A stretch of 64,000 bases of DNA from Pleionea litopenaei. Lineage in GTDB: Bacteria; Pseudomonadota; Gammaproteobacteria; Enterobacterales; Kangiellaceae. The stretch spans positions 930,001 through 994,000 of the forward strand of contig NZ_CP133548.1 of assembly GCF_031198435.1 (NCBI RefSeq), written 5' to 3'. Position 1 is the stretch's first letter; each line of letters begins with the position of its first letter. The notes under the pieces were generated by a model. It was not told where the DNA came from. It did no database searches and was given only the letters and a program-made list of their open reading frames with translations. Shown here piece by piece: positions 5,926 through 33,882 of this stretch. Made by a program: the position numbers and the translations under genes.

Positions 5926-6071
5926 AATACCAGTACTCTTATCTTCTTTTCTGCCTTTTTGCAGTATATCACATCGCTTTTCACGAAAATACAGTGAACT
6001 ATTTTGTTTAATTAATACTATACTTTGCGCCCTCAAAGCACATTACAAGACCGATCAATTGGAGAGTTGAT
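5926..6071. promoter_or_regulatory. Divergent lrp/ald regulatory region
   Basis: A 146-bp AT-rich gap separates the two divergent starts. A TATACT -10-like hexamer lies on the plus strand at about 6029-6034 with no good -35 at 17 bp, as expected for a promoter needing an activator. A GGAGAG ribosome-binding site precedes ald at 6061. Lrp binding here is inferred from the arrangement; Lrp-type activation of ald is known in other bacteria. Confidence 0.4.
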
Positions 6072-7190
6072 ATGTTAATTGGAGTACCAAAAGAAATAAA
6101 AAACCATGAGTACCGCGTTGGTATGGTTCCAGCCAGTGTTCGCGAGTTAATCGCTCATGGTCACCAAGTCATTGTTGAGCACAATGCTGGTATTGGCATT
6201 GGTTTTACGGATGATGATTACACCAGTGTGGGTGCTTCAATTCGCCAAACGCCAGAAGAAATTTTTGCTGAAGCAGAAATGATTGTAAAAGTAAAAGAGC
6301 CTTTGGCCGAAGAACGAAAGCACATTAGAGATGGTCAAATTTTATTCACTTATTTGCATTTAGCACCTGACGTTCCGCAAACCCAAGATTTACTGAACAG
6401 TGGTGCCGTGTGTATCGCTTACGAAACGGTTACTTCTGCTGCAGGAGGCCTTCCTCTTCTTGCACCTATGTCAGAAGTCGCTGGCCGCATGTCAATTCAA
6501 GCGGGAGCCCAATGCTTAGAAAAATCACGAGCGGGCCGTGGAATGCTGCTAGGCGGTGTACCCGGTGTTTCTCCTGCGAAAGTTGCCATCATTGGTGGCG
6601 GTGTCGTTGGTAGCAATGCCGCACAAATCGCTGTCGGCATGGGCGCACAAGTCGTATTGCTTGACCGCAACATTGATGTACTACGACGTATAAACGTTCA
6701 GTTCGGCGCGGCCGTTGAAACGGTTTTTTCTAGTAAAGATGCATTAGAGCGACACGTGCTCGAATCGGATTTAGTCATCGGTGGCGTACTCATTCCTGGT
6801 GCTGCAGCTCCTAAATTGGTTACTAAAGAAATGGTTCATCAAATGAAACCTGGTGCAGCGGTGGTGGATGTTGCGATTGATCAGGGTGGCTGTTTTGAGA
6901 CCTCGAAAGCGACGACCCACGCAGAACCGACCTATATTGTTGACGATGTCGTTCACTACTGTGTTGCTAACATGCCAGGTGCCGTTCCACACACGTCGAC
7001 TTTTGCGCTTAACAATGCAACGCTACCTTACATCATTGCATTAGCGAATAAGGGTTATAAGAAAGCGCTTGCCGATGACGTTCATTTACTTAACGGATTA
7101 AACGTCTATCGCGGACAAGTCACCCATAGAAGTGTGGCTGAGAGCCAAAACTTAACCTATGTTGATCCGAAAGTTGCATTAGGTCTTTAA
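6072..7190 (+). CDS. ald: Alanine dehydrogenase
   Basis: NAD-dependent reversible deamination of L-alanine to pyruvate and ammonia. The 372-residue protein shows the family N terminus MLIGVPKEIKNHEYRVGMVP, the substrate-binding Lys in MIVKVKEPL, the His of FTYLHLAPD, and the NAD-binding Rossmann motif VAIIGGGVVGSNAAQIA near residue 170. Full length. A hairpin terminator follows, so it is likely a single-gene transcript divergent from lrp. Confidence 0.95.
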   Translation: MLIGVPKEIKNHEYRVGMVPASVRELIAHGHQVIVEHNAGIGIGFTDDDYTSVGASIRQTPEEIFAEAEMIVKVKEPLAEERKHIRDGQILFTYLHLAPDVPQTQDLLNSGAVCIAYETVTSAAGGLPLLAPMSEVAGRMSIQAGAQCLEKSRAGRGMLLGGVPGVSPAKVAIIGGGVVGSNAAQIAVGMGAQVVLLDRNIDVLRRINVQFGAAVETVFSSKDALERHVLESDLVIGGVLIPGAAAPKLVTKEMVHQMKPGAAVVDVAIDQGGCFETSKATTHAEPTYIVDDVVHYCVANMPGAVPHTSTFALNNATLPYIIALANKGYKKALADDVHLLNGLNVYRGQVTHRSVAESQNLTYVDPKVALGL

Positions 7191-7238
7191 TCTTTCTAAT
7201 CGGACTCATCATTCGTCCTAACGAGTGACTAAGGTTTA

Positions 7239-7266
7239 AAAAGGCTGCCCATTGGCGGCCTTTTTC
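7239..7266 (+). terminator. Rho-independent terminator after ald
   Basis: AAGGCTGCC, loop CATT, GGCGGCCTT (one G-T pair), followed by TTTTTC, 50 bases after the ald stop. Confidence 0.85.
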
Positions 7267-7364
7267 ATGTCTTTTATTTTTGCTTCGTTGAAAACGAAGA
7301 CTAAAATCGATTTATTGCATTGTCCCAGAAGTCGAACTTCTTTAAACTTACTCTACTTTACTAA

Positions 7365-8342
<978 letters not shown>

Positions 8343-8371
8343 GTCGCGTATTTGTCATGTGCAACCTAAGT

Positions 8372-8399
8372 AAAGAAGGCGCCTTTAGGCGCTTTCTTT
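8372..8399. terminator. Bidirectional terminator between trxB and the PilZ gene
   Basis: AAAGAAGGCGCC, loop TTTA, GGCGCTTTCTTT with one G-T pair. A-rich on one side and T-rich on the other, it can serve both converging genes. It overlaps the stop codon of the minus-strand PilZ gene. Confidence 0.8.
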
Positions 8400-9069
8400 A
8401 CAATAAGTGAAGTGATCGTAAAATCTCTTGATAGACAAAAGCCTTCATCAACAACCGATCATCATCATCAGAAAAAGAAAAATAGAAGCCATACCAATTC
8501 CTGACCGCTTGCTCTCCTCCACTTTCGACTTCCGTTTTTCCTTTGTTGCGAATCCGGCAATCGAGGGTCACCAACTTTTCAACTTCATCCAGTAACAATG
8601 TCGTCGTTAAACTCAACTGATCACCAATAAGAGCAATGTTTCTGTCGCATTCTAAGCGACCTCCCAGAACACTTAAATTACTAATGGTTACACTGATAGG
8701 TTGACTCTGGTGCGTTTCATTTATAATGGTTGCCGAAAGCTCTGTATTGACTCGTACAGCATTGCGAACCTCAATCGCTTCGACTTGTTTTGGCATTTCC
8801 AAATGAATATAGGCATCTGGCTGAGTATGCATTTTAAGGACTTTTGCAGTAAAACCACTGGCAACATTATTGACGACGAAACGAAGCGTAACGAGCTGAT
8901 CTTGTTTTAGAAAAATCGCTCGACCTTGAGCATCTTTTGGTGCCGAAATAATAATGCTTGTCTCCGGCAGAAACCCGAGTAATTTAATTGGATGGCGAAC
9001 CTCTGAGTCTGCAGAAATCTGCAGTTGCATTACATCACCCATTTTTAACCCTAAATCAGAAAAACGCAT
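8398..9069 (-). CDS. PilZ-domain c-di-GMP receptor, YcgR-like
   Basis: Probable cytoplasmic c-di-GMP effector. 223 residues in two domains: an N-terminal beta-rich YcgR-N-like domain (about 10-95) and a C-terminal PilZ domain with the binding residues visible as R102-N-A-V-R106 and N131-LSVLGG. YcgR proteins slow the flagellar motor, but no flagellar gene is nearby, so the target is unknown. The ATG has GAAGAAGAG upstream. It interrupts the otherwise conserved trxB-aat order. Confidence 0.82.
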   Translation of the reverse strand: MRFSDLGLKMGDVMQLQISADSEVRHPIKLLGFLPETSIIISAPKDAQGRAIFLKQDQLVTLRFVVNNVASGFTAKVLKMHTQPDAYIHLEMPKQVEAIEVRNAVRVNTELSATIINETHQSQPISVTISNLSVLGGRLECDRNIALIGDQLSLTTTLLLDEVEKLVTLDCRIRNKGKTEVESGGEQAVRNWYGFYFSFSDDDDRLLMKAFVYQEILRSLHLL

Positions 9070-9129
9070 AATCTCTTCTTCGTTATACTGTTAAACTTAA
9101 TTGTAGTCGTATTTTACTCATCCAACACT

Positions 9130-9846
9130 ATGACCATTGAATTAGCATTGATTGAACAGCCAGATGACTTTCCTAATCCAAATGAGGCTCTTGATGACCC
9201 CAATGGATTGTTAGGATTTGGTGCCCTGCTGACCCAACCGTTGCTCAAGCGAGCCTATTATGAAGGCATATTTCCCTGGTATAACGCTGGCGAACCTGTC
9301 TTTTGGTGGAGCCCAGACCCTCGAGCCGCTTTTGATCCCTATAACACCCTCCCTAGTCGTAATTTGCGAAAACGTCTGCGTCGAAGAGACTTTAAAGTTT
9401 GCATAAATCGCTCATTTAGTCAGGTAATTTCCGCTTGCGCGTCACAACAACCCAACCGTCCTGACACTTGGATCACTGACGAAATGCAACACGCATATGT
9501 AAGACTGCACCAATCTGGTCTTGCGCACTCATTTGAAGTATACAATGAAGACCAGCTTGTTGGAGGCTTGTACGGAGTCTCAATTGGCCAAATGTTTTTC
9601 GGCGAATCTATGTTTCACCGAATGACCGATGCATCAAAAATAGCCTTGTTTTATTTGATTAAATTTGCAGCGTTTCACCAGTTTGCAATGATTGATTGTC
9701 AAATGCCGAATGCTCATCTTTTAAGCTTAGGGGCTAAAGAAGTTTCAAGAAACGAATTTCTGCGCTATCTTTATCAATATCGAGATTCAGAAATGCCTTC
9801 GCAACTTTGGAATATGCGAGACATTACTGAAGATTTTGAATTTTAA
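9130..9846 (+). CDS. aat: Leucyl/phenylalanyl-tRNA--protein transferase
   Basis: Adds Leu or Phe from aminoacyl-tRNA to proteins with N-terminal Arg or Lys, creating N-degrons read by ClpS. 238 residues with the family signatures GLLGFGALLTQPLLKRAYYEGIFPW, PVFWWSPDPRA and GGLYGVSIGQMFFGESMFH, followed by DCQMPNAHL. Pairs with bpt downstream and the clpA-clpS genes nearby. Confidence 0.95.
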   Translation: MTIELALIEQPDDFPNPNEALDDPNGLLGFGALLTQPLLKRAYYEGIFPWYNAGEPVFWWSPDPRAAFDPYNTLPSRNLRKRLRRRDFKVCINRSFSQVISACASQQPNRPDTWITDEMQHAYVRLHQSGLAHSFEVYNEDQLVGGLYGVSIGQMFFGESMFHRMTDASKIALFYLIKFAAFHQFAMIDCQMPNAHLLSLGAKEVSRNEFLRYLYQYRDSEMPSQLWNMRDITEDFEF

Positions 9847-9993
9847 GTCACCGACTTTATTCAACGGTGTACTGAGAGAGTAAAGCTTTCGGGTTAAAAA
9901 GTTTCGATTTTGAGATACAACAATCAAAGCTTTTAACGAATAAAAAGCTCGATAAAACAATCATAGTTTTTGCTTTAAATACTTGTTACTAAA

Positions 9994-10728
9994 GTGGGCA
10001 GCGACGTGCAACCAGATCCTAATGACGAGTTATTAAAACTAACTTTTTATGCGACTCCTTCACACAGTTGTTCCTACCTTTCAGAACAACAAGCGACGAC
10101 GGTTTTTCTTGATCCTGAAAAACACATCAGCAAAAAACTATACACCAGACTTAGCGAAACCGGATTTCGACGCAGTGGAAGCCATATTTATCGACCGCAT
10201 TGCGAAACGTGCCAAGCATGCGTTCCGGTTCGAATTCCGGTTAACCAATTTAAAGCCAACCGCAGTCAGCGCAGGTGCTTAAAAAAAGGCAGTATGTTCC
10301 GCTCAGAACTCTCTGAAGCTCGTTATCATGATGAGCATTATCATCTTTATGAGCGCTATCTTAGAGAACGCCATGCCGATGGAGATATGTACCCTCCTTC
10401 TCATCAACAATATCAAGACTTTCTATTCAGCGAGTGGTCAAATACCGAGTTCCTCAATATTTACGACCAAAATAAATTGATCGCTTGCTCAGTAATTGAC
10501 CGACTCGATAATGCATTTTCGGCGGTTTATACCTATTTTGACCCGAAATATGAACATTACAGCTTGGGTAAGCTCGCTATTTTAAGATTGGTTGAGGCTG
10601 CAAAAGACGCTCAATTAGACTTCTTATATCTGGGTTACTTAGTAAAAGATTGTCGTAAAATGAAATATAAATCTGAATACCGCCCTCTCGATTGTCTGGT
10701 GGGTAACCGCTGGGTACGACTAACTTAA
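9994..10728 (+). CDS. bpt: Aspartate/glutamate leucyltransferase
   Basis: Transfers Leu to proteins bearing N-terminal Asp or Glu, the second entry route to the ClpS/ClpAP N-degron pathway. Signatures: FYATPSHSCSYL, GFRRSGSHIYRPHCETCQACVPVRIP (conserved Cys cluster, about residues 58-80) and the acetyltransferase-like C-terminal half with YTYFDPKYEHYSLGKLAIL. The start is GTG at 9994; another GTG four codons later (10006) is possible and neither has a strong ribosome-binding site. Confidence 0.93.
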   Translation: MGSDVQPDPNDELLKLTFYATPSHSCSYLSEQQATTVFLDPEKHISKKLYTRLSETGFRRSGSHIYRPHCETCQACVPVRIPVNQFKANRSQRRCLKKGSMFRSELSEARYHDEHYHLYERYLRERHADGDMYPPSHQQYQDFLFSEWSNTEFLNIYDQNKLIACSVIDRLDNAFSAVYTYFDPKYEHYSLGKLAILRLVEAAKDAQLDFLYLGYLVKDCRKMKYKSEYRPLDCLVGNRWVRLT

Positions 10729-21021: not shown

Positions 21022-22326
21022 GAGACTGTAAATAACTCTGTGTAACTGTCTATTATTAACCTATTGAATAGGAGATGATAGACCTATGGACAAGAAAGAG
21101 GTTGAAGCCTGGGCTCGTAAAGCAGCCAAAGGCATAAAGACTGAAGAAGAGTTAAATGACTTTCGTCAGATGCTGACGAAGGTCACTGTCGAAACCGCTT
21201 TGAATGCAGAGCTTGATGAGCATCTGGGCTATGAAAGACACGCTCAGTCAGATTCTGATAATTATCGGAACGGCTATACACCGAAAACGCTTCTTACCGA
21301 AGATGGCCCACTCTCAATTGAAACGCCACGAGACCGGCAAGGCACATTCGAACCCCAGTTAGTCAAGAAGCAGCAAACTCGCTTCACTACGATGGACGAG
21401 AAAATCCTGAGCCTTTACGCCAAAGGGATGACGACTCGAGAAATCGTAGCCACGTTCAAAGACATGTATGATGCCGACGTCTCGCCCACATTGATTTCAA
21501 AAGTCACCAATGCAGTTATTGAGCAAGTCATTGAATGGCAGTCACGCCCACTAGATTCAATTTACCCCATCGTTTATCTGGACTGTATCGTGCTAAAAAT
21601 TCGGCAAGATAAACAAGTCATCAACAAGTGCGTTTACTTGGCGCTAGGCGTCACTATGGAAGGCCAAAAAGAGCTTTTAGGCTTGTGGTTATCAGAAAAC
21701 GAGGGGGCTAAATTCTGGCTCAACGTTTTAACTGAGCTTCAAAATCGAGGAGTTAAAGATATTCTCATTGCTTGTGTTGACGGTTTAAAAGGGTTTCCTG
21801 ACGCTATCAACTCGGCTTATCCCGAAACGCAAGTACAGCTTTGTATAGTGCACATGATTCGAAACTCCGTTCGCTATGTTCCCTGGAAAGACTACAAGGC
21901 CGTGACAGCGGATTTAAAGCGCATTTATCAGTCAGCCACTGAAGAAGATGCGCTGCTTGCGTTAGAGCAATTCTCTGAGCGTTGGGACGATAAGTATCCG
22001 CAAATCAGTCGCTCCTGGAAAACTCATTGGCACAATCTAAATACGTTATTTAATTATCCGCCTGAAATACGCAAAGCCATTTATACGACCAATGCCATTG
22101 AGTCGCTCAACAGTGTGATTCGAAAGTCGATTAAGAAGCGAAAGCTCTTTCCATCAGATGACTCCGCCAAAAAAGTGGTTTATCTAGCGATTATGGACGC
22201 TTCGAAAAAATGGACTATGCCTATTAGAAATTGGAAAGCGGCCTTAAATCATTTTATGATTGTATTTGATGGCCGCTTAGATGACTATGTTTGAACTGGC
22301 AGTTACACAGAATAATTTACAGGGTC
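21022..22326 (+). mobile_element. Complete IS256-family insertion sequence, 1305 bp
   Basis: Terminal inverted repeats at 21022-21050 and 22298-22326 match at 24 of 29 positions when aligned end to end, with outer ends GAGACTGTAAAT and (reverse complement) GACCCTGTAAAT. A single intact transposase fills the interior. An identical 8-bp flanking duplication (GCCTTTTT) shows that it arrived by transposition and has not been rearranged since, so the insertion is probably fairly recent. Confidence 0.93.
21086..22294 (+). CDS. IS256-family (Mutator-like) transposase
   Basis: 402 residues, the normal length. DDE catalytic residues are visible in YPIVYLDCIVLKIRQD (first Asp), ILIACVDGLKGFPDAI (second Asp) and IYTTNAIESLNSVIRKS (Glu), with the family signature around VQLCIVHMIRNSVRYV. 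N-terminal region AELDEHLGYERH with RNGYTPKT is also typical. TAGGAG precedes the ATG. No frameshift or stop, so likely active. Confidence 0.95.
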   Translation: MDKKEVEAWARKAAKGIKTEEELNDFRQMLTKVTVETALNAELDEHLGYERHAQSDSDNYRNGYTPKTLLTEDGPLSIETPRDRQGTFEPQLVKKQQTRFTTMDEKILSLYAKGMTTREIVATFKDMYDADVSPTLISKVTNAVIEQVIEWQSRPLDSIYPIVYLDCIVLKIRQDKQVINKCVYLALGVTMEGQKELLGLWLSENEGAKFWLNVLTELQNRGVKDILIACVDGLKGFPDAINSAYPETQVQLCIVHMIRNSVRYVPWKDYKAVTADLKRIYQSATEEDALLALEQFSERWDDKYPQISRSWKTHWHNLNTLFNYPPEIRKAIYTTNAIESLNSVIRKSIKKRKLFPSDDSAKKVVYLAIMDASKKWTMPIRNWKAALNHFMIVFDGRLDDYV

Positions 22327-22345: not shown

Positions 22346-24295
22346 TTACTTTAAGTGTTTTGCTAAGAACTTTTCCATTTTAGTGTAAAGCTCTATACGA
22401 TTTTCTTCTTTTCTGAAACCGTGTCCTTCGTTTTCTTTCATAATCCACTCATCGTCACTTAACTTAATACCTCGATCTTCGAGCGCATCTCTAAGCTCCG
22501 TAGCATGCTCTTTAACAACACGAGGATCGTTCGCACCTTGAACAATCATTAACGGCGCTTTGATTTTGTCTACATGTGCTAATGGTGACATACGCTTCAT
22601 TAACTCATCGTCATCGGGATCTCCGATTCGAACTTTCATAACTTCTTTCATAGGTTCCCAATGTTTCGGCATAGACTCAAAAAGTAATGCAACATCGGTT
22701 ACACCCACATAATTGATTCCACAAGCGTACAAGTCAGGTGTAAATGTCAAGCCTGCCATCGTTGCGTAACCGCCGTAGCTGGCACCGTAAATGCACACTC
22801 GCTTCGGATCAACTATTTTTTCTTTGATCAAATATTTAACCGCATCGGTGAGATCGTTTTGCATTTCTGCACCCCACTTTCCACCATAACCGGCTTGCTC
22901 AAATTTACGACCGAATCCACCAGAACCTCGATAGTTTACCTGAATGGTTGCGTATCCGCGACTCGCAAAGAACTGATGCTCGGGATTAAAACCCCAGCTA
23001 TCTCTTACTCCGAACGGGCCACCGTGTGGGTTAACAATCAACGGCAGATTTTTACCATCAGACTCTTTTGGAATCGTAATATAACCATGAATTAATAGGC
23101 CATCACGGCTGGTAAATTTAAAGGGTTTCATTTCAGACAGTAATTCTGGTTTCAACCAAGGCATACGGGCTAAAAGAAATGAAACTTTATTAGTATCTCT
23201 TTCAAATAAATAGTACTTACCGGGATCATTGTCATCAGAAACAGAAATGATACTAACCGACTCATCTTGAGTAGAACTTGTTAAATTAACTCGCTTACCC
23301 GGAAATGCGGCTTGCAATGAAGCCATCATATTTTTAGTCGCTTCATCAAAATAAACGGTTTCTGGATACTCATAAATGTAACTAACACCTAAAACCTTTT
23401 GTTGATGTCGAGACATCATTAAATTGGAAACATCAACGACATCATGTTCAAAAACTAAGTCACCAAGTTTATTGGCTTTAGGATCAAACTTGTAAATTGC
23501 TCCTCGGTCACGACCAATATTTGATGAAACAAATAACGTTTTATTGTCCCAATCAAAAGCTAATGGCGTCATTCCTTCATCGTGAATGTTAAACTCTCTA
23601 AGGACTTTAAACTCCTCCTCTCCTTTTTCTTTATAATGGAATTTTCCACTTAGACCGTCTATCGACACCGCGCCACGAACATCACCATCATGATCGACTA
23701 ACCAGCTTTGAACATTGCCTGGGTTGCGAGCAATCATATCCATCTTACGATTTTTATTTCCTCTTTGATCCCAATGACTATCAAGTGCCAATTTATAAAG
23801 ATCAGGAGCAGCAATACGTCGACCATTAAATTGAACCAAAATATGGTCTGGGTCATCAGGCAATGTATGAACAACATTGGCCGATCGAATGCCTGCCGAA
23901 CCCGCGGTTGCAGCAACTAACTGTACAATTTTTGGTTTGCCCTTAGTATTCACTTTATACAAACTGAATGATTCTCTACCATCGCTATCCATGGTAAAGA
24001 CGATATCATCATTATTTGCCCAAAAATAACCAGCAACATCTTGATCAGCCAATCCTGTTATAGCCCTTGGCTTACCGATACTGCCATCTTTAGCGAACTC
24101 CATAATAATAATATTTCTACGTTCTCTGAGCGGTGAAAGGATGGCTAGATACTTTCCGTTCGGCGAAAGCTGCAATGAGGTGTAATCGGGGTTTTTAAAA
24201 AAGTCTTTGACAGGTATGTCTTTCGCACTAGACCATCCAGAGAGACTGGTAGCGAGTAAACATAACGCTATCACGTATTTATAAATGTGACGCAT
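22346..24295 (-). CDS. S9 family (prolyl oligopeptidase-type) serine peptidase
   Basis: Secreted or periplasmic peptidase of 649 residues: signal peptide MRHIYKYVIALCLLATSLSG, a beta-propeller (about 30-390) and an alpha/beta-hydrolase domain with nucleophile GASYGGY (about residue 505), Asp in VQGANDPRV and His in NEGHGF. Such enzymes cut dipeptides or acylated residues from small peptides. The start at 24295 is chosen for its signal peptide and AAGAAGGAAA upstream; a frame extends ten codons further. The IS separates it from its former terminator. Divergent from the M16C gene. Confidence 0.88.
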   Translation of the reverse strand: MRHIYKYVIALCLLATSLSGWSSAKDIPVKDFFKNPDYTSLQLSPNGKYLAILSPLRERRNIIIMEFAKDGSIGKPRAITGLADQDVAGYFWANNDDIVFTMDSDGRESFSLYKVNTKGKPKIVQLVAATAGSAGIRSANVVHTLPDDPDHILVQFNGRRIAAPDLYKLALDSHWDQRGNKNRKMDMIARNPGNVQSWLVDHDGDVRGAVSIDGLSGKFHYKEKGEEEFKVLREFNIHDEGMTPLAFDWDNKTLFVSSNIGRDRGAIYKFDPKANKLGDLVFEHDVVDVSNLMMSRHQQKVLGVSYIYEYPETVYFDEATKNMMASLQAAFPGKRVNLTSSTQDESVSIISVSDDNDPGKYYLFERDTNKVSFLLARMPWLKPELLSEMKPFKFTSRDGLLIHGYITIPKESDGKNLPLIVNPHGGPFGVRDSWGFNPEHQFFASRGYATIQVNYRGSGGFGRKFEQAGYGGKWGAEMQNDLTDAVKYLIKEKIVDPKRVCIYGASYGGYATMAGLTFTPDLYACGINYVGVTDVALLFESMPKHWEPMKEVMKVRIGDPDDDELMKRMSPLAHVDKIKAPLMIVQGANDPRVVKEHATELRDALEDRGIKLSDDEWIMKENEGHGFRKEENRIELYTKMEKFLAKHLK

Positions 24296-24561
24296 GGTGT
24301 TTTCCTTCTTTGGTTTGAAATCCAATTTTCAGTCACTTAGTATCCTTAGGACTTACTCACACATCGCCCGCTAAATGTTAAAGAGCATGTCAAAATGACC
24401 GATATTACACATTTAGCAATACAAATTGAGTTTCTCTTGGTTTCAGACAAATAATTTTCCTCCAAAAAATAATGTTCGTCCCAGTAGCTCAAGGGTAATT
24501 AATCATTGCAGTTGTTCTTTACCAGCCTTAGAATTTAAAAAAAAAGGAATATTTAAAGACA

Positions 24562-27500
24562 ATGTCATTTCAAGCCGAAGCCAAGAAAAGCAATAAGATC
24601 ACTTCATTTGACTTAATAGAAGCAACAAAAATCTCATTTTTAGATTTAGAGATCTGTCAGTATCGACACGAACCGACAGGTGCCGAACACTTTCACTTCA
24701 CTGCTGATACGTCCGAGAATATCTTTATGGCGAGCTTTCATACTCCGCCTTTCGATAACAGCGGTGTCTTCCACATTTTAGAACATGCGATCATGTGCGG
24801 TAGCAAAAACTTTCCCGTGTCTGACTTGCTTTTTCAGATGTCACGACGTTCGGTCAGTCAGTTCATGAACGCTCTAACGGGCAGTGATTGGACCGGTTTC
24901 GCATTTGCAACGCCACTACTCCAAGATTTTAATAATTTACTTTCTGTTTATCTAAATTCCATTTTTTTCCCTAGACTAGATCCATTAGACTTTGCTCAAG
25001 AAGGCCATCGGTTAGAATTGCAGCAAGTAGAAGACCTACATAGTGACATCCATTTTCAAGGCGTAGTGCTTAATGAAATGATAGGGGCAATGTCAACGCC
25101 ATCATCTCAGTTATGGGAGTTGTTTAAGCAACATTTTTTACCAAACACACCCTACCAATTTAATAGTGGCGGCGAACCTAACGATATTGTTAATCTTAGC
25201 TACGAAAAATTTGTCGCGACGCACCAACGCTTTTTTACGCCATCGAACGTAAAATTCATCACCTTCGGAAACATACCAGCAGCCCACCATCAAAATATTT
25301 TTGAAACTCAAGTTCTCCAACACTTTGACCTTTCGAAAAAGACTTGCCAACCTCAAAACATGCACTTTAGTAGCGCTAAACAGCAGTTAATTAAATGTAA
25401 GTTAGATGACAACTACTTTATGTTGGGTTGGCTATTGGGTGAAACATCTAATTTAAACGATCAGTTAGAAGCCGATCTATTGTTTAAGGCTCTTATTGAA
25501 AACCCATTCTCCCCGCTTAATCAATTAATTCAATCAAATGACCTTGATCCGGTTTATGAGTTATGCGGCATTGATCGAGATGGTCGCGAACTGATTTTAA
25601 GTTTAGCGTTTCGTATTAAAGATTCAAAAGCAGCGAATGAACTTTCAGATAAGTTTACAAAATGTATTACAGGTGTCGCTAGTCATGGTCTCCCAAAGTC
25701 GTTTATGGAGATGGCTATTAAAGAGATTGAACTAGAGCGAAGAAAATTTGACGAATACGGCGTTCCTTACGGTGTTCAACTATTTCTACGCTCAATGCCC
25801 GCGATGCTAAAAAATCAAAACCCTAGTGGGTTACTAGATATAGGTGGCGCCATAACAGAGCTCAATAAGAAGATTGGTAGTCCAGATTATTTTAAATCAT
25901 TAATTAATAGACGGTTAGTCAATAACAACCATCACTTATCACTAACCTTGGTTAATGACATCAACCAACCGTCACCATCAGAATTACTGAACGAAACACT
26001 AGACACGCTAAACAGAGTCTTAACGATCAAACAACGCCAAGAAATTGCGACTCAACAAAAGTCTTTAGAGTCACGCCAAACGTCAGCCGAAGATTTAACA
26101 AGGTTACCAATGCTTAGATTTGAGCAAATAAAGAGTGAAGCTAAGTCTAAAGATTTTCGAGAACGCGTTACTCAATGTTCAAACACCATGATTAATATCG
26201 TGGAAATGAGTAGCCAAGGCTTGGTACATCAATCTGCCATTATGGAATTGAGCTTTTTACCCCGCGAGCTTCAAAAACACTTAAAACTTTATTGCTTTTT
26301 GCTCACTGACATTGGCATGGAACAAGCCGTTGAGAACCATATCATCAATCAGCAGTCACTAGGTTCTATAGAGCTCAACGCAAAAGTAATCTGTCGCCAA
26401 GATTCTAGTAATCCCCAAAAGGGGCGTTTATTCTTATGCGTATCTGGAACATCGTTGCAGCAAGACTATCATTCGCTAACTCAATTATTACACTACGTTC
26501 TTAATTTATCGAAAATTGACTCGCGAGAAGATATTCAAAGTCGATTATCTGAATTTTTAGCGAGCATCGAAAGTAACTTAGCCTTTGGTGCTCATATGCT
26601 AGCGCTTTCTTCCGCTTGTGCTCCTTTTAGTTATCGAGAGCATCTCGCCGCTCAATGGCATGGTTTTGAAGCTATTAGTCGGTTAAAAGGGTTAACAAAA
26701 GACCTTGAAAACAATGCGGCTGAATTAAATCAACTATTCTGCGATTTAATGACCATTCAATCATTTATTGAAGAGCAGTCAGTTCAGTTGATCATGCAAA
26801 CGGGCTCTGAGTCGAAACTCGATGTCAGTGAGTTGATGGCAAAAGTCTGGAAGCATAGCAATCTAGATTCAACTATCTCTTCATATGGTGATGAGCATCT
26901 AAATAGAGTTGCGAATAACAATTCTGAAATTAACGGTGAAATTAACGGTGAAATTAACGGTGAAATTAACGGTGAAATTGACGGTCTAATTGTAAGACAT
27001 TCAGATGAATTCTATTCTAACGATGAAATTTCAACGCAACGATGTTGGGTCGCCAATAAACATCTCAATACCTGCGCGATGGCTATTCCAACGGTCAGTG
27101 AATTACACGCCGACGCTGCAGCTCTTACTTTAGCTGCCATTCTTATACATGGGGGCTACTTAAATCAAGCGATTCGAGAACGTGGTGGCGCCTATGGCGT
27201 TGGTGTAACACAAGAGTCTCAGTTCTCATGTTTCAGACTATTTTCACACGACGATCCTAATCTCGAAAGAACCTTGATGCACTTTAACCGCTCATTAAGT
27301 TGGTTATTAGTTCATGAAAATTTTACTGACCAAGATTTGGAGTTTGCAAAGCTCAAAGCCGTTAGTCAATTGACGGCTCAAACGTCGTCCTTCGCTTTTC
27401 ACATTGAGCGTCATCTTGATTTATTACTAAACCAAACGAAGAACATGACTCATGTTTTAATTGATAATATTGCAAGTGTCAGTCGCCAAGATGTTGTCAA

Positions 27501-27609
27501 TGCCGTGAAGCGCTACCTATTCAATTCTACCTCAAACACCGTTTTACTCGCTAATCAACAATCCATACATGAAGCTGAAACATTAGGTTTTAAAATAATA
27601 GAGCTTTAG
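24562..27609 (+). CDS. M16C family zinc metallopeptidase (PreP-like)
   Basis: 1015 residues, the length of presequence-protease/falcilysin-type M16C enzymes, which degrade peptides inside a closed clamshell. Inverted zinc motif HILEH at 71-75, with downstream Glu likely in HFQGVVLNEMIGAM. C-terminal half has the substrate-binding RERGGAYGVGV. No clear signal peptide, so probably cytoplasmic. A five-copy EING repeat (about residues 789-808) sits in the second half, probably in a surface loop. Converges with the MFS gene of the P450 cluster. Confidence 0.9.
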   Translation: MSFQAEAKKSNKITSFDLIEATKISFLDLEICQYRHEPTGAEHFHFTADTSENIFMASFHTPPFDNSGVFHILEHAIMCGSKNFPVSDLLFQMSRRSVSQFMNALTGSDWTGFAFATPLLQDFNNLLSVYLNSIFFPRLDPLDFAQEGHRLELQQVEDLHSDIHFQGVVLNEMIGAMSTPSSQLWELFKQHFLPNTPYQFNSGGEPNDIVNLSYEKFVATHQRFFTPSNVKFITFGNIPAAHHQNIFETQVLQHFDLSKKTCQPQNMHFSSAKQQLIKCKLDDNYFMLGWLLGETSNLNDQLEADLLFKALIENPFSPLNQLIQSNDLDPVYELCGIDRDGRELILSLAFRIKDSKAANELSDKFTKCITGVASHGLPKSFMEMAIKEIELERRKFDEYGVPYGVQLFLRSMPAMLKNQNPSGLLDIGGAITELNKKIGSPDYFKSLINRRLVNNNHHLSLTLVNDINQPSPSELLNETLDTLNRVLTIKQRQEIATQQKSLESRQTSAEDLTRLPMLRFEQIKSEAKSKDFRERVTQCSNTMINIVEMSSQGLVHQSAIMELSFLPRELQKHLKLYCFLLTDIGMEQAVENHIINQQSLGSIELNAKVICRQDSSNPQKGRLFLCVSGTSLQQDYHSLTQLLHYVLNLSKIDSREDIQSRLSEFLASIESNLAFGAHMLALSSACAPFSYREHLAAQWHGFEAISRLKGLTKDLENNAAELNQLFCDLMTIQSFIEEQSVQLIMQTGSESKLDVSELMAKVWKHSNLDSTISSYGDEHLNRVANNNSEINGEINGEINGEINGEIDGLIVRHSDEFYSNDEISTQRCWVANKHLNTCAMAIPTVSELHADAAALTLAAILIHGGYLNQAIRERGGAYGVGVTQESQFSCFRLFSHDDPNLERTLMHFNRSLSWLLVHENFTDQDLEFAKLKAVSQLTAQTSSFAFHIERHLDLLLNQTKNMTHVLIDNIASVSRQDVVNAVKRYLFNSTSNTVLLANQQSIHEAETLGFKIIEL
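26926..26985 (+). repeat. In-frame 12-bp minisatellite, five copies
   Basis: GAAATTAACGGT repeated exactly four times, then a fifth copy with one change (GAAATTGACGGT). The unit is a multiple of three, so copy-number change alters only the length of an EING loop in the M16C peptidase. Confidence 0.95.
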
Positions 27610-27669
27610 AGATTCGGTTATATTGAGAAAGTCGCCAAATCGAACTTAAAGTAGTTTCAATGATTGTCG

Positions 27670-29013
27670 TTAAGAGGTTAATTCACTGGCTACTGAAAGC
27701 TTATTGACGGATCCAATTTTAACGATTGAACTAAACAGGAGTGCGCTTAACGCAACAATCGAAAGTGCAGCTCCAGCAATTAGGAAAAATAGATCGATTG
27801 CTATCGACTGTAAGATAAATCCGCTTAACATTGCACTTAAGGGTAACAACCCAATTAATGCAAAGGTCACTATGCCCATTACTCGACCTAAAAGCTCTCG
27901 TTGAGTACTCATTTGAACCCAAGACATAAATATCACTTGAACATATCCAGCAAACACTCCCATTATAAAGAGTATACATTGTCCCTGCAGAACACTGGTC
28001 GATTGTGATAAACCAATTAATGCAATTCCGACGAACAGATCGGTCAATAGCACGCTTGCGCCAACGGACAGTTTTATTATTTGCCGCAGCTTACTGACTA
28101 ACATTGAACCGAGTACATTTCCAAATGCAAAAAATGCTAATAGATAACCATAACTCTGTGAGCCTTCTTGCCAATGCTGCTGAACCATTAAAGGCATACC
28201 GACCTGCATGAATCCACCAAGAAAGCTTGTAACCACTGCGAGGTAGAGCGTTATCTTAAGAAGTTCCTTATTTTGCTTAAAATAGCCAAAGCCCGCGATC
28301 ACATTACTCAATAGTTTATTCACTCGACTTGAGCTTCTTCTTGGCTCAACTTTTATTACCGCTAAAATAATCGCCGACACAACGAAGGTTAATCCATCGA
28401 TACTAAAGATCCAAATGAGTCCTTGATGACTCACCTCTCCTTCACTTGAATTAAGTTCTATACCCAACAAAACCGCCGCCAATAATGGTCCGATAATATT
28501 GGTTATCGAACGCAACATCATTCCAAAACCATTGGCGGCCGGCAATTGTGATGAGTTAACTAACTCAGGCAGTAAAGCCGAACCAGCTGGAATTGCAAAT
28601 GCGCTTGACGTCCCTAAGACTAATACAATCGAAATCAACGACCAAAAGTTCAATTGATCTACCATTAAAAGGCCTACTAGCAAAAACATCAAAGCTGCAT
28701 TAATGGCCTTGGAAATAAGTAACACGGATTTCGGAGAGAAACGATCGACCACAGCCCCGCTAACTAATAAAAAAACAGTCATTGGAACGGCTAATGCACC
28801 TAATACGGCACCAAGCACCCAAGGCTCGTTAAATAGAAACAAAGCTAGCCAAGGTAAAGTGACCAAAGTCAGCTGATCACCAAGCATAGAAATAAATGAG
28901 CCAACACAAAGTGATCGAAAACGCGAGTTATTGACCAAACGAACGTTTACTTGGTTTTCTTCAATGGCAACACGAGCGAACGAATCACTTGCTCCTTGGG
29001 ACTGCTTTTCCAT
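27670..29013 (-). CDS. MFS transporter, EntS-like exporter of the P450 cluster
   Basis: 447 residues with about twelve membrane helices. The loop 2-3 MFS motif is visible as GAVVDRFSPKSVLL; the N-terminal sequence FRSLCVGSFISMLGDQLTLVTLPWLAL is typical of the MFS_3/EntS-type efflux group. It begins 3 bases after the P450 stop, so the two are co-translated from one mRNA. The likely job is export of the product made by the peptide-P450 pair; that substrate is inferred from context only. Confidence 0.87.
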   Translation of the reverse strand: MEKQSQGASDSFARVAIEENQVNVRLVNNSRFRSLCVGSFISMLGDQLTLVTLPWLALFLFNEPWVLGAVLGALAVPMTVFLLVSGAVVDRFSPKSVLLISKAINAALMFLLVGLLMVDQLNFWSLISIVLVLGTSSAFAIPAGSALLPELVNSSQLPAANGFGMMLRSITNIIGPLLAAVLLGIELNSSEGEVSHQGLIWIFSIDGLTFVVSAIILAVIKVEPRRSSSRVNKLLSNVIAGFGYFKQNKELLKITLYLAVVTSFLGGFMQVGMPLMVQQHWQEGSQSYGYLLAFFAFGNVLGSMLVSKLRQIIKLSVGASVLLTDLFVGIALIGLSQSTSVLQGQCILFIMGVFAGYVQVIFMSWVQMSTQRELLGRVMGIVTFALIGLLPLSAMLSGFILQSIAIDLFFLIAGAALSIVALSALLFSSIVKIGSVNKLSVASELTS

Positions 29014-29016
29014 TCG

Positions 29017-30363
29017 TTACACCGCTTGCTTTTGCAAGTTCTCTCTAAGTACCCATCGACACTTCACATTATCGGGACGTAATAAAGTACTGTGCATAGG
29101 CAATGCTGTCTCTAAGGGAGGAAGAATGAGTTCGTATCTGCTTAGTAAGGCCCGCAAACCCAACATTAGTTGAATTGGCCCCAATAACGCACCGGGGCAT
29201 ATTCTAGGACCCGATCCAAACGGAATATAGGCATTTTCTTTGTGAGGGGCCTTACCCGTCAACCAACGTTCTGGGTCGAACTCTTCTGGGCGATCCCAGT
29301 AGCGTTCATCTCGGTGAAGTACAAAAGGACTGAATAAAATTCGACAGTCTTCTGGTATTAAATAACCACCCAACATAGTGTCTCTTTGAGCGGTTCTTCC
29401 CATTAACCAATTGGACGGATGCATGCGCATGGTTTCTTTTAAGAATGCGTGAGTATTTGGGAACTTACTTGGAATTAAAATATCCTTGGCATCGCGATCC
29501 ATTTCTTCGCGAATTTTTTCAATATACTCAGGATGCTCTGCAAGTCGTAACAAGCACCAACTAAAAATTGAACCCGAAGGTCCGTGGGCAGTAACCATCA
29601 TTAAGCGAACGGCCGCTACCAATTGTTCTTCAGGTGCGTCATGCATTCCTTCAATCAGTTGATCGAGTGCATCTCTTGGCGCTTCATTGCGAGGATATTC
29701 AGCCAACCTCCGCTTCACCACTTGATGCAGCAACTCGACCAATTCTTTATTTAAACGTTCAGCGCGTTTTGCTATGGGTCTCGGCATCCAAGGTAGTCGA
29801 GTTTCTTCGCTATCCGTAACATTAAGCGATGCCCAAAAGACTTCTTCAACGGCATCAAATATTCGCTTAAATTCAGGATCAGCACCCACGACAAAATCAG
29901 CTACCGCACATCCCAATAAGTTTTGGCTTGCATCAAACAAATCTTGTTCTTGATCAGAACGCTTATCGACTTCACGCTCTAAGCTTACTCCTGCTCTTCC
30001 AATATGCTGTGTTAATACATGACGATTTAATGCTTTACCCAGATATTTTCGAGACTGCATCCATTCGGCTATACCGTCAATCAGCTTTTTTCGACCGTGT
30101 TTACCTGCAGTCATCGCATTGTCTAGAATATAATCTTCATTCGTTTCACTGCAGACCTTTTCTATTAAACCAGCGTCATGAATCACCACTGTCTCACTAT
30201 CAAGGCGAACCATGTCACCAAACTCAGGCTTAGTCTCAAGCATCCAGCCAACGGGATCTTCATCGAAACGCATAGCGTCGCCAATCAGAAATTTTCCTTT
30301 AGGTCCTGGAATATCAAAAATACTTGGCAATTTATTTTTATCTTTTTTAAAAAATGAAAACAT
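29017..30363 (-). CDS. Cytochrome P450, candidate peptide cross-linking enzyme
   Basis: 448-residue soluble P450 without a membrane anchor. Heme motif FGSGPRICPG with ligand Cys389, K-helix E310-TMR313 and proline-rich start IPGPKG are clear. In the I helix the usual acid-Thr pair (AGxET) reads A259-HGPSGS, with Pro in place of the acid and Ser in place of Thr, so proton delivery may be unusual. No ferredoxin or reductase gene is adjacent. Upstream lies a 25-codon Trp/Tyr-rich peptide gene and downstream an exporter, the layout of P450-modified RiPPs such as cittilins, biarylitides and atropopeptides. A catabolic or fatty-acid P450 remains possible. Confidence 0.9.
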   Translation of the reverse strand: MFSFFKKDKNKLPSIFDIPGPKGKFLIGDAMRFDEDPVGWMLETKPEFGDMVRLDSETVVIHDAGLIEKVCSETNEDYILDNAMTAGKHGRKKLIDGIAEWMQSRKYLGKALNRHVLTQHIGRAGVSLEREVDKRSDQEQDLFDASQNLLGCAVADFVVGADPEFKRIFDAVEEVFWASLNVTDSEETRLPWMPRPIAKRAERLNKELVELLHQVVKRRLAEYPRNEAPRDALDQLIEGMHDAPEEQLVAAVRLMMVTAHGPSGSIFSWCLLRLAEHPEYIEKIREEMDRDAKDILIPSKFPNTHAFLKETMRMHPSNWLMGRTAQRDTMLGGYLIPEDCRILFSPFVLHRDERYWDRPEEFDPERWLTGKAPHKENAYIPFGSGPRICPGALLGPIQLMLGLRALLSRYELILPPLETALPMHSTLLRPDNVKCRWVLRENLQKQAV

Positions 30364-30493
30364 GACTTCTGCACTCTAGAAAAGCAGCTTACTGGAAGGA
30401 ATTTTATTAAGAGAAAGATGCCACAACTCCATAACAGAAAGAATCAAACGTTCAACTCTTCCGTGTAAATGCGACAACTTTCTCGTGACTACT

Positions 30494-30514
30494 CTACTAA
30501 ATAAAAATTAGTAG
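30494..30514 (-). other. Hairpin over the precursor stop codon
   Basis: CTACTAA, 7-base loop, TTAGTAG: perfect 7-bp stem that includes the stop codon of the small peptide gene, with a weaker outer stem ACTAC/GTAGT. No T run follows, so it may stabilise or attenuate the mRNA between peptide and P450 rather than end it. Confidence 0.45.
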
Positions 30515-30585
30515 ATTGGGTAGTAGTACCACCAACCGCGAGTAGTTTTTGACATTTTTTTCATAACAGCTTTTGTGTATTTCAT
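30508..30585 (-). CDS. Putative RiPP precursor peptide, 25 residues, C terminus GWWYYYPIY
   Basis: Starts MKYTK, has a basic, Lys-rich leader of about 16 residues with four Lys after the start region and an Arg, and ends in GWWYYYPIY, seven aromatic or bulky residues in the last eight. A very strong ribosome-binding site (AAAGGAG, 9 bases before ATG) and a promoter-like pair upstream argue that it is translated. The P450 starts 144 bases downstream on the same strand. Short precursors with a Tyr/Trp-rich tail beside a P450 are the hallmark of biaryl-forming RiPPs (cittilin core YIYY, tryptorubin core AWYIWY). I do not recognise this exact peptide. It could instead be a regulatory leader peptide. 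Confidence 0.65.
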   Translation of the reverse strand: MKYTKAVMKKMSKTTRGWWYYYPIY

Positions 30586-30622
30586 TTTATTTTCTCCTTT
30601 GTTTTACATAGGTCCGACAAAA

Positions 30623-30651
30623 AGAATACTCTCGCAAAAAATCGCTGTCTA
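30623..30651 (-). promoter_or_regulatory. Putative promoter of the peptide-P450-MFS unit
   Basis: TAGACA (5/6), 17-bp spacer, TATTCT (4/6) on the minus strand; the predicted start near 30615 leaves a leader of about 30 nt carrying AAAGGAG before the peptide ATG. Confidence 0.5.
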
Positions 30652-31041
30652 GAATAAAAAACAAGCATTTTAAAAAATATTTACATAAGAGATTTTCAAT
30701 GGACTTTAATGAAAAATGACTCAATACTAAATTTAAAATCTAAAAATAGCATTCTCTTTAAAAACCATCGCCATAAAACGTCGATACCAATTGACACCTA
30801 TTTGATATTAAAGTGGATTCAAAAAAAATTTAGGAAACAAAGCCGGAATGTATGTCGTATTGAAAAAATACAACTGAGAATCAAAAGTACATCGAACAGG
30901 TCAAACCTCTATAAATCATGAAAATACCCCTACAAATACACATGAAAAATATATGCCATTTCAACTTTACAAGGTTCAGTTTAAGTTCACATACATTTGA
31001 TTAAATACGACCTATCCACCATCAACGAACTACATGGAAAA
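30652..31041. other. AT-rich spacer, no gene recognised
   Basis: About 390 bases of very AT-rich DNA between the peptide cluster and the next lipoprotein gene. A 70-codon plus-strand frame at 30709-30921 is low-complexity, has no ribosome-binding site and resembles nothing known; I do not call it. The composition suits a junction of acquired DNA. Confidence 0.5.
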
Positions 31042-31350
31042 ATGCGATATATTAGTTTAATAGCTATCTTAATGATCAGTGCATGCGCAACGGTCAGCGA
31101 GCAGAGTTTAGCCGTAAAAATGATAGAATCTGAAATTGAGCTTCCGACCAATTGCAGGCAAAACATCAGTATTAAATCAGGTTCTGCATTTGAAGAGTAT
31201 GCACTCGCGAAAGAGCACGCCACTAATGATGCCCGAATTAAAGCGGCCAAAGCTGGTAGTACGCATATCCTCATTACCAGCATAAAAAGTCATGTTGCTC
31301 TCTTTCTAACTGTAGTGGAGGCCAAAGGCTATGTCTGCCGTGATGAATAG
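31042..31350 (+). CDS. Small putative lipoprotein (possibly DUF4156-like)
   Basis: 102 residues starting MRYISLIAILMISAC, a short signal with lipobox ISAC. The mature part ends with NDARIKAAKAGSTHILITS and a C-terminal Cys (YVCRDE), reminiscent of the DUF4156/RcsF-like small lipoproteins, in which internal Cys pairs stabilise the fold. The start at 31042 is set by the signal peptide; the frame is open for 15 codons upstream. Function unknown. Confidence 0.6.
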   Translation: MRYISLIAILMISACATVSEQSLAVKMIESEIELPTNCRQNISIKSGSAFEEYALAKEHATNDARIKAAKAGSTHILITSIKSHVALFLTVVEAKGYVCRDE

Positions 31351-31354
31351 CTTT

Positions 31355-31816
31355 TTACTGAGCTCTCTCGAACCCATTTTGAAACAGCTCAGCTTTTGAG
31401 GGACGGCGACCTGTGGTTTGTTCTGTACATAACTTCACAAAAGTATGTAAATAGTTTTTACACTTTGTGTTGTGCAAACCGATACCGCTGCAAGTGTCAT
31501 TAACCCAATCTAGAGAGGCTTTAACATCGTCTAGTTTTGGCAACCTGGTGCAAAAGTCATCTTTATTTGCGGCCAGCATACAGCCATTAATAAATCCCGT
31601 AGCGGATAATTCACACTCTAGATCATTACAACCCATGTATCGAAATCTTAGACCAGTAGTACACTGGCTTTGATTCAACGACTCCCCAAAAGCTTTTCCA
31701 AACACTAATCCTTGTGTCGTCGCGCTATGCAAGTCATCGTATTTAGTTTTTGCGAAATAACCAACAATAGCGACTAAACTAAAAATACTAAGAACAACTA
31801 TCCACTTTTTACTCAT
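31355..31816 (-). CDS. Cysteine-rich membrane-anchored hypothetical protein
   Basis: 153 residues: one N-terminal hydrophobic segment (about 5-22) as anchor or uncleaved signal, then a soluble domain with eight Cys spread over about 80 residues, which suggests a disulfide-bonded periplasmic domain. No family recognised. It converges with the lipoprotein gene, only 4 bases apart. Confidence 0.6.
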   Translation of the reverse strand: MSKKWIVVLSIFSLVAIVGYFAKTKYDDLHSATTQGLVFGKAFGESLNQSQCTTGLRFRYMGCNDLECELSATGFINGCMLAANKDDFCTRLPKLDDVKASLDWVNDTCSGIGLHNTKCKNYLHTFVKLCTEQTTGRRPSKAELFQNGFERAQ

Positions 31817-31936
31817 AAAAATCCCTAACTACAATAATGTCATGGCGGATCGATACTTAACGCAAATCGCCATTAAAAACAAAACATGAAGTGATATCAC
31901 AATCGAACTTCGATTCGTATCAGATCGAGAAAACCA

Positions 31937-32296
31937 TTAAAGCCCAAGTTCCTTTTGACGCTTCTGGCTAAGTCCTTTTGCCACCATTTGATAAGACTCA
32001 GATAGGTAATACTGTAATTGCTTATTCAGCTTTGAGTCCGTATCGAACTGCTGAATCCACTTAAATCCTCTTGAAGCAAGATAAGGCGCAGGACGAAAAC
32101 CTGGTTGATCTTTTAAAACGTCGAAGTTAAGCTCTGACACTTTGAATGTATAAGCCTCTGTCCCCGAGTCTTTATTCCATCCACCGATAGCAAATACTTT
32201 ACCGCCGATTTTCCAGACATGCGCCCCACCCCATTGTACGACATAGGTGGTAGACTTAAGTGACTTACAATACTCGTTAAACTCTAAATAGGTCAT
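31937..32296 (-). CDS. MmcQ/YjbR family protein
   Basis: 119 residues of the small YjbR/CyaY-like fold: MTYLEFNEYCKSL, then VQWGGAHVWKIGGKVFAIGGW and FRPAPYLASRGFKWIQQF, all typical. YjbR proteins are predicted DNA- or nucleotide-binding, but without firm function. Single gene. Confidence 0.85.
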   Translation of the reverse strand: MTYLEFNEYCKSLKSTTYVVQWGGAHVWKIGGKVFAIGGWNKDSGTEAYTFKVSELNFDVLKDQPGFRPAPYLASRGFKWIQQFDTDSKLNKQLQYYLSESYQMVAKGLSQKRQKELGL

Positions 32297-32606: not shown

Positions 32607-33859
32607 TTATGCTGCGTGAGCTAACAATAATTGACGATTAAAACCGATCCAATGTTTACGATAAGCTTTCAACTGTTTGCGCCACTGTTGATATTTTTCA
32701 AATACTTCATGATTCTCATAGTTTTCAACCAGTTGCTTTTTCTGAAGTAAAACCCAATCTCGCTTTGCAGAATAGTACTCAGTTAGCTTTTGACAATAAA
32801 TCTCATATTCTGCCTTCAATTTATTGATCAACTCTTCACTTCGAGGATGACCGGCTAAGTGTAGCTTCTTAATATTTCTTTGCATTAACATCGTAGCTTT
32901 AGCACGCTCAATTTTAGACTCATCACTGCGCTTTAGATCCTTCGCTAACTTTAACCAACTTAAGGTTTTAATCCACCACTTTGTCGGATCAAAATGCCAC
33001 CAACGAATGCCGTTCCTATAATCGTTTTGAAATAAATGGTGAAAATTATGGTAGCCTTCACCAAAGGTAAACAAGGCAATAAACCCATTGTCTCTCGCTG
33101 TATTTTGATCGGTGTAGGTCTGCTTGCCCCAAATATGCGCCAATGAATTGATGAAAAAAGTCACATGATGACTAATCACCAAACGCAAAAAGCCTACCAC
33201 TAGTAGCATTCCGATGACGTCGCCGTAAATCCAACCAAGAAGTAAAGGTCCACCAAAATTGACCAACAAGGTTAGCCATAAATAATTTCGATGCTGCCAC
33301 ATTACAATTTTATCTTGTTGTAAATCTTTTACGTTTGAGTAGTCATTGTACCGATGGGATTGGTATTCTCGAAGCATCCAACCTATATGAGAATACCAAA
33401 AACCGCGTTTGGCAGAATAAGGGTCCTTATCATTGTCATCAACATGACCGTGGTGTAAACGGTGATCAGACGACCAATGCAGTGCGCTATTTTGTACTGC
33501 AAAAGCCCCCCTATTGCGTAGAAAAAGCGTATAACAGCATTCGCTTTATAAGCTTTATGGGACCAAAGTCGGTGATAACCTGCGGTAATAGACATTCCAC
33601 AATAACCAATACCTATAATCATGAATACCCAATGCCATAAGTCGAAACCAACCAAGTAGCCGTATAAGGGTACCCCTATTAGGGCAATGGTGGTGGTTAA
33701 AACAAATACAGAGACATTCAACCAAATAATTTTCGGCTTGCGTGTTGGCTCTGTCTGAGCCACTGAGCGCAACGGCTCTTTAGATTTATTCATTAACTTA
33801 TTTAAACTCTTTAAATTTTCAATTCTGTAAGGTTTCAGCGTATGAATACGTTCAACCAT
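32607..33859 (-). pseudogene. Acyl-CoA/fatty-acid delta-9-type desaturase, frameshifted
   Basis: Membrane di-iron desaturase. The first part carries GYHRLWSHKAYKA (first His box); the second carries DHRLHHGHVDDNDKDP (second box, only in the corrected frame) and GEGYHNFHH (third box) plus four membrane segments. The frames are joined by a G6 run at 33506-33511: seven Gs would read AIGGAFAVQNSALHWSSDHRLHH, exactly as in intact relatives. As sequenced, no functional enzyme is made, because box 2 is out of frame. Start uncertain: ATG 33859 or, with the operator then fully upstream, ATG 33793 (MNKSK). A long basic helical tail (about the last 110 residues) is unusual. Controlled by FabR. Confidence 0.85.
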
Positions 33860-33860
33860 T

Positions 33861-33882
33861 TCAGCGTACACATGTTCACTGA
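33861..33882. promoter_or_regulatory. FabR-type operator
   Basis: Inverted repeat TCAGCGTACA - CA - TGTTCACTGA (8 of 10 positions symmetric), with the AGCGTACA half-site known for FabR/DesT regulators. It abuts the -10 box of the desaturase promoter on the downstream side, so bound repressor would cover the transcription start. Confidence 0.75.

Follow-up and report, generated by a model that had tools for sequence, protein, structure and literature searches.

Within a 64,000-nucleotide stretch of the Pleionea litopenaei genome (the window), a gene for a 25-residue peptide with an aromatic C terminus is followed on the same strand by genes for a cytochrome P450 and an MFS exporter, with a PreP-like M16C metallopeptidase gene convergent to the exporter gene. 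Comparison of these sequences with those of related genomes makes it likely that they form a biosynthetic cluster for a P450-modified ribosomally synthesized and post-translationally modified peptide (RiPP) with Trp/Tyr cross-linking. The cluster is real and conserved; it probably works as a P450-RiPP cluster, and its core is new. An earlier sequence-only reading of the window had described a minimal three-gene cluster. The P450 and exporter genes do lie on the precursor strand, separated by the very short gap it reported, and the three genes are as described, but the extent was drawn too narrowly and the convergent peptidase gene was overlooked. The genes, their conservation and their co-occurrence are directly supported by the results below.

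The precursor gene is present as that reading gave it, with 25 codons that encode MKYTKAVMKKMSKTTRGWWYYYPIY and end in GWWYYYPIY, so that the aromatic residues of the tail are W18, W19, Y20, Y21, Y22 and Y25. The strong ribosome-binding site proposed for it is the sequence AAAGGAG, whose end lies 8 bases ahead of the ATG. There are 24 ATG open reading frames (ORFs) of 15–60 codons with a Shine–Dalgarno-like site in the 64-kb window, and the precursor alone carries at least five W, Y or F among its last nine residues; 30 block-shuffled windows contained a mean of 0.1 ORFs of this aromatic-tailed, Shine–Dalgarno-preceded kind. The proposed promoter is not supported. The pair TAGACA-17-TATTCT exists at 30651-30623, yet 10 promoter-like sites occur in 27400-31100 against a shuffle mean of 9.3, and the sequence upstream of the ribosome-binding site shows no visible conservation between the window and P. 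mediterranea.

P. mediterranea DSM 25350 encodes MKYTKAVMKKMSKTTRGWWYYYPMY ahead of its own P450, in an ORF that ends 122 bases before the P450 start codon. The two peptides are identical at 24 of 25 residues, the start and stop are kept, and the tail reads GWWYYYPMY. If the cluster is what we propose, a homologous P450 gene should be preceded by a short gene with a conserved aromatic tail, as the sequence-only reading had pointed out, and both are found in P. mediterranea, the single close relative recovered. Because a nearly letter-for-letter copy is present in the sister species, we regard the tiny precursor gene as real. Five of the 25 codons differ, four of them silently and one by replacement, and silent sites have changed at 4/19 positions in the precursor (window 30511-30585, L011 5774-5848) versus 174/264 in the P450 (Fisher p 2.5e-4). 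Judged by this comparison, the precursor ORF is a strongly constrained coding gene and the best-kept part of the cluster: identity between the two species is 96% for the peptide, 64% for the P450, 45% for the MFS protein and 32% (BLASTP) or 34% (MAFFT) for the M16C protein. The quiet silent sites of the precursor could reflect codon bias linked to high expression, RNA constraint or local recombination.

The P450 retains an intact ExxR motif (KETMR) and the heme-binding segment FGSGPRICPG with the catalytic Cys. Its top NCBIfam model is ApyO, the Tyr-Tyr cross-linker of the aminopyruvatide RiPPs (NF050147; 2.1e-36, 125.5 bits), and the P. mediterranea P450 matches the same model at 2.9e-32 and 111.9 bits. 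The I-helix is unusual, reading MMVTAHGPSG, with AHGPS where relatives mostly show AGHET, so that the acid-alcohol pair is absent. Of 61 distinct P450s collected, 49 fit a regular expression for the canonical acid-alcohol pair; the other 12 comprise the four cluster P450s from Pleionea and from the second genome described below, G053, and eight more. By eye, an acid and an alcohol are still present in five of these eight (L032, L065, L069, L070, L078), while the remaining three show His-Thr (L075), Thr without the acid (L009) or neither residue (L008).

In P. mediterranea the peptide, P450 and MFS genes and the convergent M16C gene have the same order and orientation as in the window, the 45%-identical MFS homologue occupying the matching position, and there is no long match to the window beyond the cluster. 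Another Pleionea genome, G004, is collinear with the window backbone as far as the S9 peptidase gene that adjoins the cluster (to ∼24310) and then diverges. Among 38 relatives, a PreP-like M16C protein (E up to 1e-20) occurs in two, which are the two that hold the close P450, and neither protein was found in the three other genomes of the genus; we therefore count the peptidase in the module. A Pfam scan of eight cluster-neighbor proteins identified MFS, P450, M16, S9 peptidase, YjbR and TetR proteins and two without a match. The cluster was also looked for more widely. Over genome contigs, two exact peptide patterns hit 69 stretches and one relative, P. mediterranea, and over viral contigs 56 stretches and no relative; plasmids yielded no peptide match and 615 records with generic P450s, every one below 60% identity. 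Whole-genome searches with a two-row P450 alignment returned 2 of 394 genomes of the order and 3 of 369 of the class at 1e-30, the window's own genome being among the latter, and 36 of 398 of the phylum at 1e-25, where the best other match scored 119 bits versus 975.6 for the window's own. Because these limits are strict, looser relatives of the G053 type could escape the two-row searches; a three-row alignment at 1e-12 returned 20/295 genomes of the order and 22/143 of the class. The order, class and phylum sets overlap.

The M16C protein contains the domains M16C_assoc (PF08367, 1.7e-28) and PreP_C (PF22516, 4.5e-8), and the HxxEH zinc motif reads HILEH in both Pleionea homologues, in keeping with a PreP-like member of M16C. 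Residues H71, E74, H75, E172, R872 and Y878, which we take to correspond to the catalytic residues of PreP, are invariant between the two species. A side feature of this gene is an in-frame 12-bp tandem repeat at window 26926-26985, with five EINGEI-type units, which is absent from the P. mediterranea homologue. In class III lanthipeptides, removal of the RiPP leader by M16 enzymes is known, in an account whose relevant passages do not mention M16C (PMC10885120). By analogy, the M16C protein probably removes the leader. Export of the product is probably the task of the MFS protein.

A second, more distant candidate P450-RiPP cluster occurs in G053, a genome of the same taxonomic order (locus L037, G053:C3:327000-344000, positions 5874-10606, minus strand). 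Here two short ORFs in tandem, MKKMKNAVLRKLGLRSSALGCGGRGYPNSWRWVMYHHM and MKKMKNAVMRTLGLRNQAVCYSKNPSWFWMLYHHM, precede two tandem P450s and an ABC exporter. The peptides end in SWRWVMYHHM and SWFWMLYHHM, giving W-x-W-x-x-Y tails, and both P450s have odd I-helices (NGPPG and TTGSLG) that lack the acid-alcohol pair. The best NCBIfam model for P450-A is ApyO, at 65.5 bits. In a tree of the 61 P450s, the two Pleionea and two G053 enzymes group together with support of 98/95; the grouping recurs in each of three reduced trees (93, 72 and 97). A leader-plus-aromatic-tail pattern applied over loci L001-L061 recovered the loci of Pleionea and of G053 plus a single chance ORF (L032), and a looser short-ORF pattern over L062-L080 recovered one chance ORF (L076). 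The G053 cluster has a GC content of 0.49 versus 0.61 in its flank, and within G053's own family its P450 is present in one of five genomes. We read G053 as a probable cousin of the Pleionea cluster. Two candidate links were discarded: a leader homology between KxxKAVMKKM and KMKNAVMRTL, convincing by eye, failed shuffling, and an Acinetobacter plasmid match to a G053 peptide (E 7) had no annotated P450 within 3 kb.

Translation, chemistry, the cleavage site, what the peptidase and exporter do and any function that the product may have are inferred. The 25-residue precursor would be translated, with its basic N terminus (roughly residues 1-16) acting as a recognition leader. The C-terminal GWWYYYPIY would enter the P450, which would most likely abstract hydrogen from the indole of Trp and the phenol of Tyr and couple neighboring rings of WWYYY through C-C, C-N or C-O bonds, with a loss of 2.016 Da per bond, a reaction like that of ApyO on YLY and WLY. 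Cleavage by the PreP-like M16C enzyme, perhaps near Arg16-Gly17, would free the core from its leader, and the cross-linked product would leave the cell through the MFS protein. Going further, one may tentatively see here a distinct marine-gammaproteobacterial subclass, a view we hold with less than even confidence. It would be defined by a near-frozen GWWYYYP(I/M)Y core, a Gly-Pro I-helix P450 giving a multi-ring Trp/Tyr scaffold, dedicated release by a PreP-type M16C enzyme and MFS export, with a P450 ancestor common to the twin-precursor, two-P450, ABC-exporter, hyalucidin-leaning cluster of G053.

Several results weigh against a cross-linking cluster as proposed, or against its link to G053. 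The conservation argument rests on two genomes, because a single close relative was found. The name ApyO is thin evidence, because the score of the window P450 is far under the cut-off of 525 bits and a terpene P450, albaflavenone monooxygenase, follows at 117.7 bits, only ∼8 behind. Among 32 PDB sequences matched at 1e-20 there is no named cross-linking P450, the best being sugiol synthase, and the best NCBIfam model for P450-B of G053 is pentalenene oxygenase rather than ApyO. Loss of the acid-alcohol pair is no rule for cross-linkers, because the I-helix residues of P450Blt include Glu238 and Ser239 in the part of its description that bears on this point (PMC10929621). The 61-row tree was produced with long-branch warnings, no M16C match was found in G053, and similarity between the Pleionea and G053 leaders is not significant, with 191/5000 and 977/5000 shuffles scoring as high; for whole peptides the figures are 1409/5000 and 1374/5000.

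These points leave room for other explanations. One is that the precursor is real and the P450 hydroxylates, nitrates or dehydrogenates Tyr or Trp instead of forming aryl cross-links. There is a precedent in RufO, a P450 described as nitrating tyrosine in a RiPP-type pentapeptide, and the Pleionea enzyme is a remote relative of ApyO; six adjacent or nearby aromatic residues, together with an I-helix lacking the acid-alcohol pair, would nevertheless suit radical coupling better, and we consider this alternative quite improbable. More improbable still is that the short ORF, instead of encoding a precursor, acts as a regulatory upstream ORF or codes for a small membrane-active peptide, with the P450, MFS and M16 proteins serving another metabolite. 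A folded spacer does follow the short ORF ahead of the P450, and the conservation of silent sites noted above could mean RNA constraint. Against this, the two species share the amino-acid tail but not the structures downstream of it, an Rfam scan of 24000-32000 was empty, and short aromatic-tailed ORFs, two in tandem, also precede the G053 P450s.

The composition of the module can be questioned separately, since the M16C and MFS genes might be chance neighbors and a housekeeping protease might remove the leader. The M16C gene is convergent and lies outside the P450 operon, because it is coded on the opposite strand, and an ABC exporter replaces the MFS protein in G053. Moreover, as described in the published accounts of these clusters, neither the characterized atropopeptide biosynthetic gene cluster (BGC), for which a ubiquitous protease is believed to act (PMC11450843), nor the apy BGC (PMC11117315) encodes a protease. 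The M16C and MFS genes, in contrast, keep their positions in P. mediterranea despite different surroundings, and the M16C and P450 genes occur in the same two of 38 relatives; chance association is thus unlikely in our view, though it deserves real weight. A P450-RiPP cluster with its own peptidase and exporter is the reading we retain.

The coordinates of the features are collected in the table. The spacer between the precursor and P450 genes folds more stably than shuffled sequences over 30364-30510 (z -2.38), but not over 30440-30510 (z +0.89). The P. mediterranea spacer (L002 1349-1470) contains another hairpin, with z -2.88 for L002:1346-1425 and -1.27 over the whole 125 nt. The predicted hairpins are possible attenuators that would favor expression of the precursor over that of the enzyme.

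Table. Features of the Pleionea litopenaei cluster (window coordinates)
Feature	Position	Strand	Description
Precursor peptide gene	30585-30508	minus	ATG at 30585, stop 30508-30510
Putative leader and core	residues 1-16 and 17-25 of the precursor		predicted boundary
Ribosome-binding site AAAGGAG and spacer	30586..30603	minus	AAAAGGAG, also precedes the P. mediterranea gene
Spacer between precursor and P450, 144 bases	30364..30507	minus	predicted RNA structure; possible attenuator, weakly indicated
Cytochrome P450, 448 aa	29017..30363	minus	Pfam p450 5.7e-58; proposed cross-linking enzyme
MFS exporter, 447 aa	27670..29013	minus	MFS_1 4.5e-27, MFS_3 5.4e-27; 3 bases past the P450; proposed exporter
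PreP-like M16C metallopeptidase, 1015 aa	24562..27609	plus	convergent with the MFS gene; proposed leader peptidase

Other observations concern the surroundings. The P. mediterranea cluster (L011 5974-11580) is AT-rich, with gene GC contents of 0.34-0.38 versus 0.45 in a neighboring tyrS-like gene, the pattern expected for acquired DNA. In the window, a 402-aa ORF at 21086-22294 resembles, on visual inspection, a transposase of the IS256 type; it is missing from the collinear G004 stretch, which has about 50 bases where the window has 1.4 kb. On the other side of the cluster, two adjacent minus-strand ORFs at 32607-33871 look like an interrupted desaturase gene, the downstream one being a C-terminal piece of a fatty-acid desaturase (PF00487, profile 127-239 of 253), with no Pfam match for its upstream neighbor.

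If the proposal is correct, one more cross-linked peptide scaffold is gained, from a genus without such a report in the literature searched, and the P450 substrate would be a 25-mer that is easily made and tested. The M16C link would likewise point to a leader peptidase that can be tested on a P450-RiPP; the characterized atropopeptide clusters and the apy cluster, as described, encode no counterpart. In RiPPs, diversification of the core is often seen; here conservation is much higher in the precursor than in its enzymes, which is the reverse and suggests a role as a fixed target or signal. A search for literature on Pleionea together with P450s or RiPPs found nothing relevant, subscription mining papers lying outside it, and the cluster may already sit unnoticed inside a published network.

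The superfamily of P450-modified RiPPs is established and has been mined intensively (PMC12299652). The broad class (cyptides) is characterized by the pairing seen here, a short aromatic-tailed precursor with a P450, which is kept in P. mediterranea and has an analog in G053. The sequence-only reading had drawn parallels with cittilins, biarylitides and atropopeptides. Broad membership is supported, but the atropopeptide and biarylitide assignments are not. ApyO is described as cross-linking the Tyr residues of YLY and forming Trp-Tyr bonds in a WLY variant, and as accepting a 10-residue C-terminal peptide in which Arg is needed (PMC13192836). Its pocket residues Val260/Pro265 (PMC13192836) have the same spacing as V257/P262 of the Pleionea P450, compared by residue number and without an alignment. 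The Arg spacing is not comparable, because Arg16 lies 4 or 5 residues before the candidate Tyr residues. As a test for aminopyruvatide membership, the NF050147 cut-off was missed by both Pleionea P450s. The apy precursor, moreover, has 66 aa versus 25 aa in Pleionea and a YxYD-type end versus PIY, and the partners described for apy, an MNIO, a B12-dependent radical SAM enzyme and a methyltransferase, are not among the eight scanned Pleionea neighbors.

Atropopeptides, including tryptorubin, resemble the Pleionea system in having a single short precursor, a single P450 and an aromatic C-terminal core (PMC11450843, PMC12352619). The atropopeptide core pattern is xWxxWx or xWxxYx, and those described from Xanthomonas have WxxY cores, which W18-Y21 and W19-Y22 fit, but a block of five aromatic residues fits many patterns; their P450s have proteases nearby, as in the Pleionea cluster. 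None of the six KSLK-type leader motifs given in PMC11450843 is present in the P. litopenaei peptide, the P. mediterranea homologue or either G053 peptide. Biarylitides are alike in combining a tiny precursor, a P450 and an aromatic cross-link, but their precursor is described as having five residues with a two-residue leader, whereas that of Pleionea has 25 (PMC13417212, PMC8708641). The NCBIfam model for hyalucidin A family RiPP precursors (NF053510, cut-off 35 bits) matches peptide b of G053 at E 0.00098 (19.2 bits) and peptide a at E 0.64 (10.2 bits), and neither Pleionea peptide at E up to 10. Yin et al. (Angew. Chem. 2026), going by their title, report hyalucidin A as the product of tandem P450 catalysis. 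Hyalucidin A has a short P450-modified precursor, as proposed for Pleionea, and shares tandem P450s with G053, versus the one P450 in Pleionea. The cittilin core, YIYY, is unlike that of Pleionea. Cittilin clusters are described with a methyltransferase, which is not among the scanned Pleionea neighbors; in layout, with a 27-aa precursor and one P450, cittilin is nearest to the Pleionea cluster (PMC8708641).

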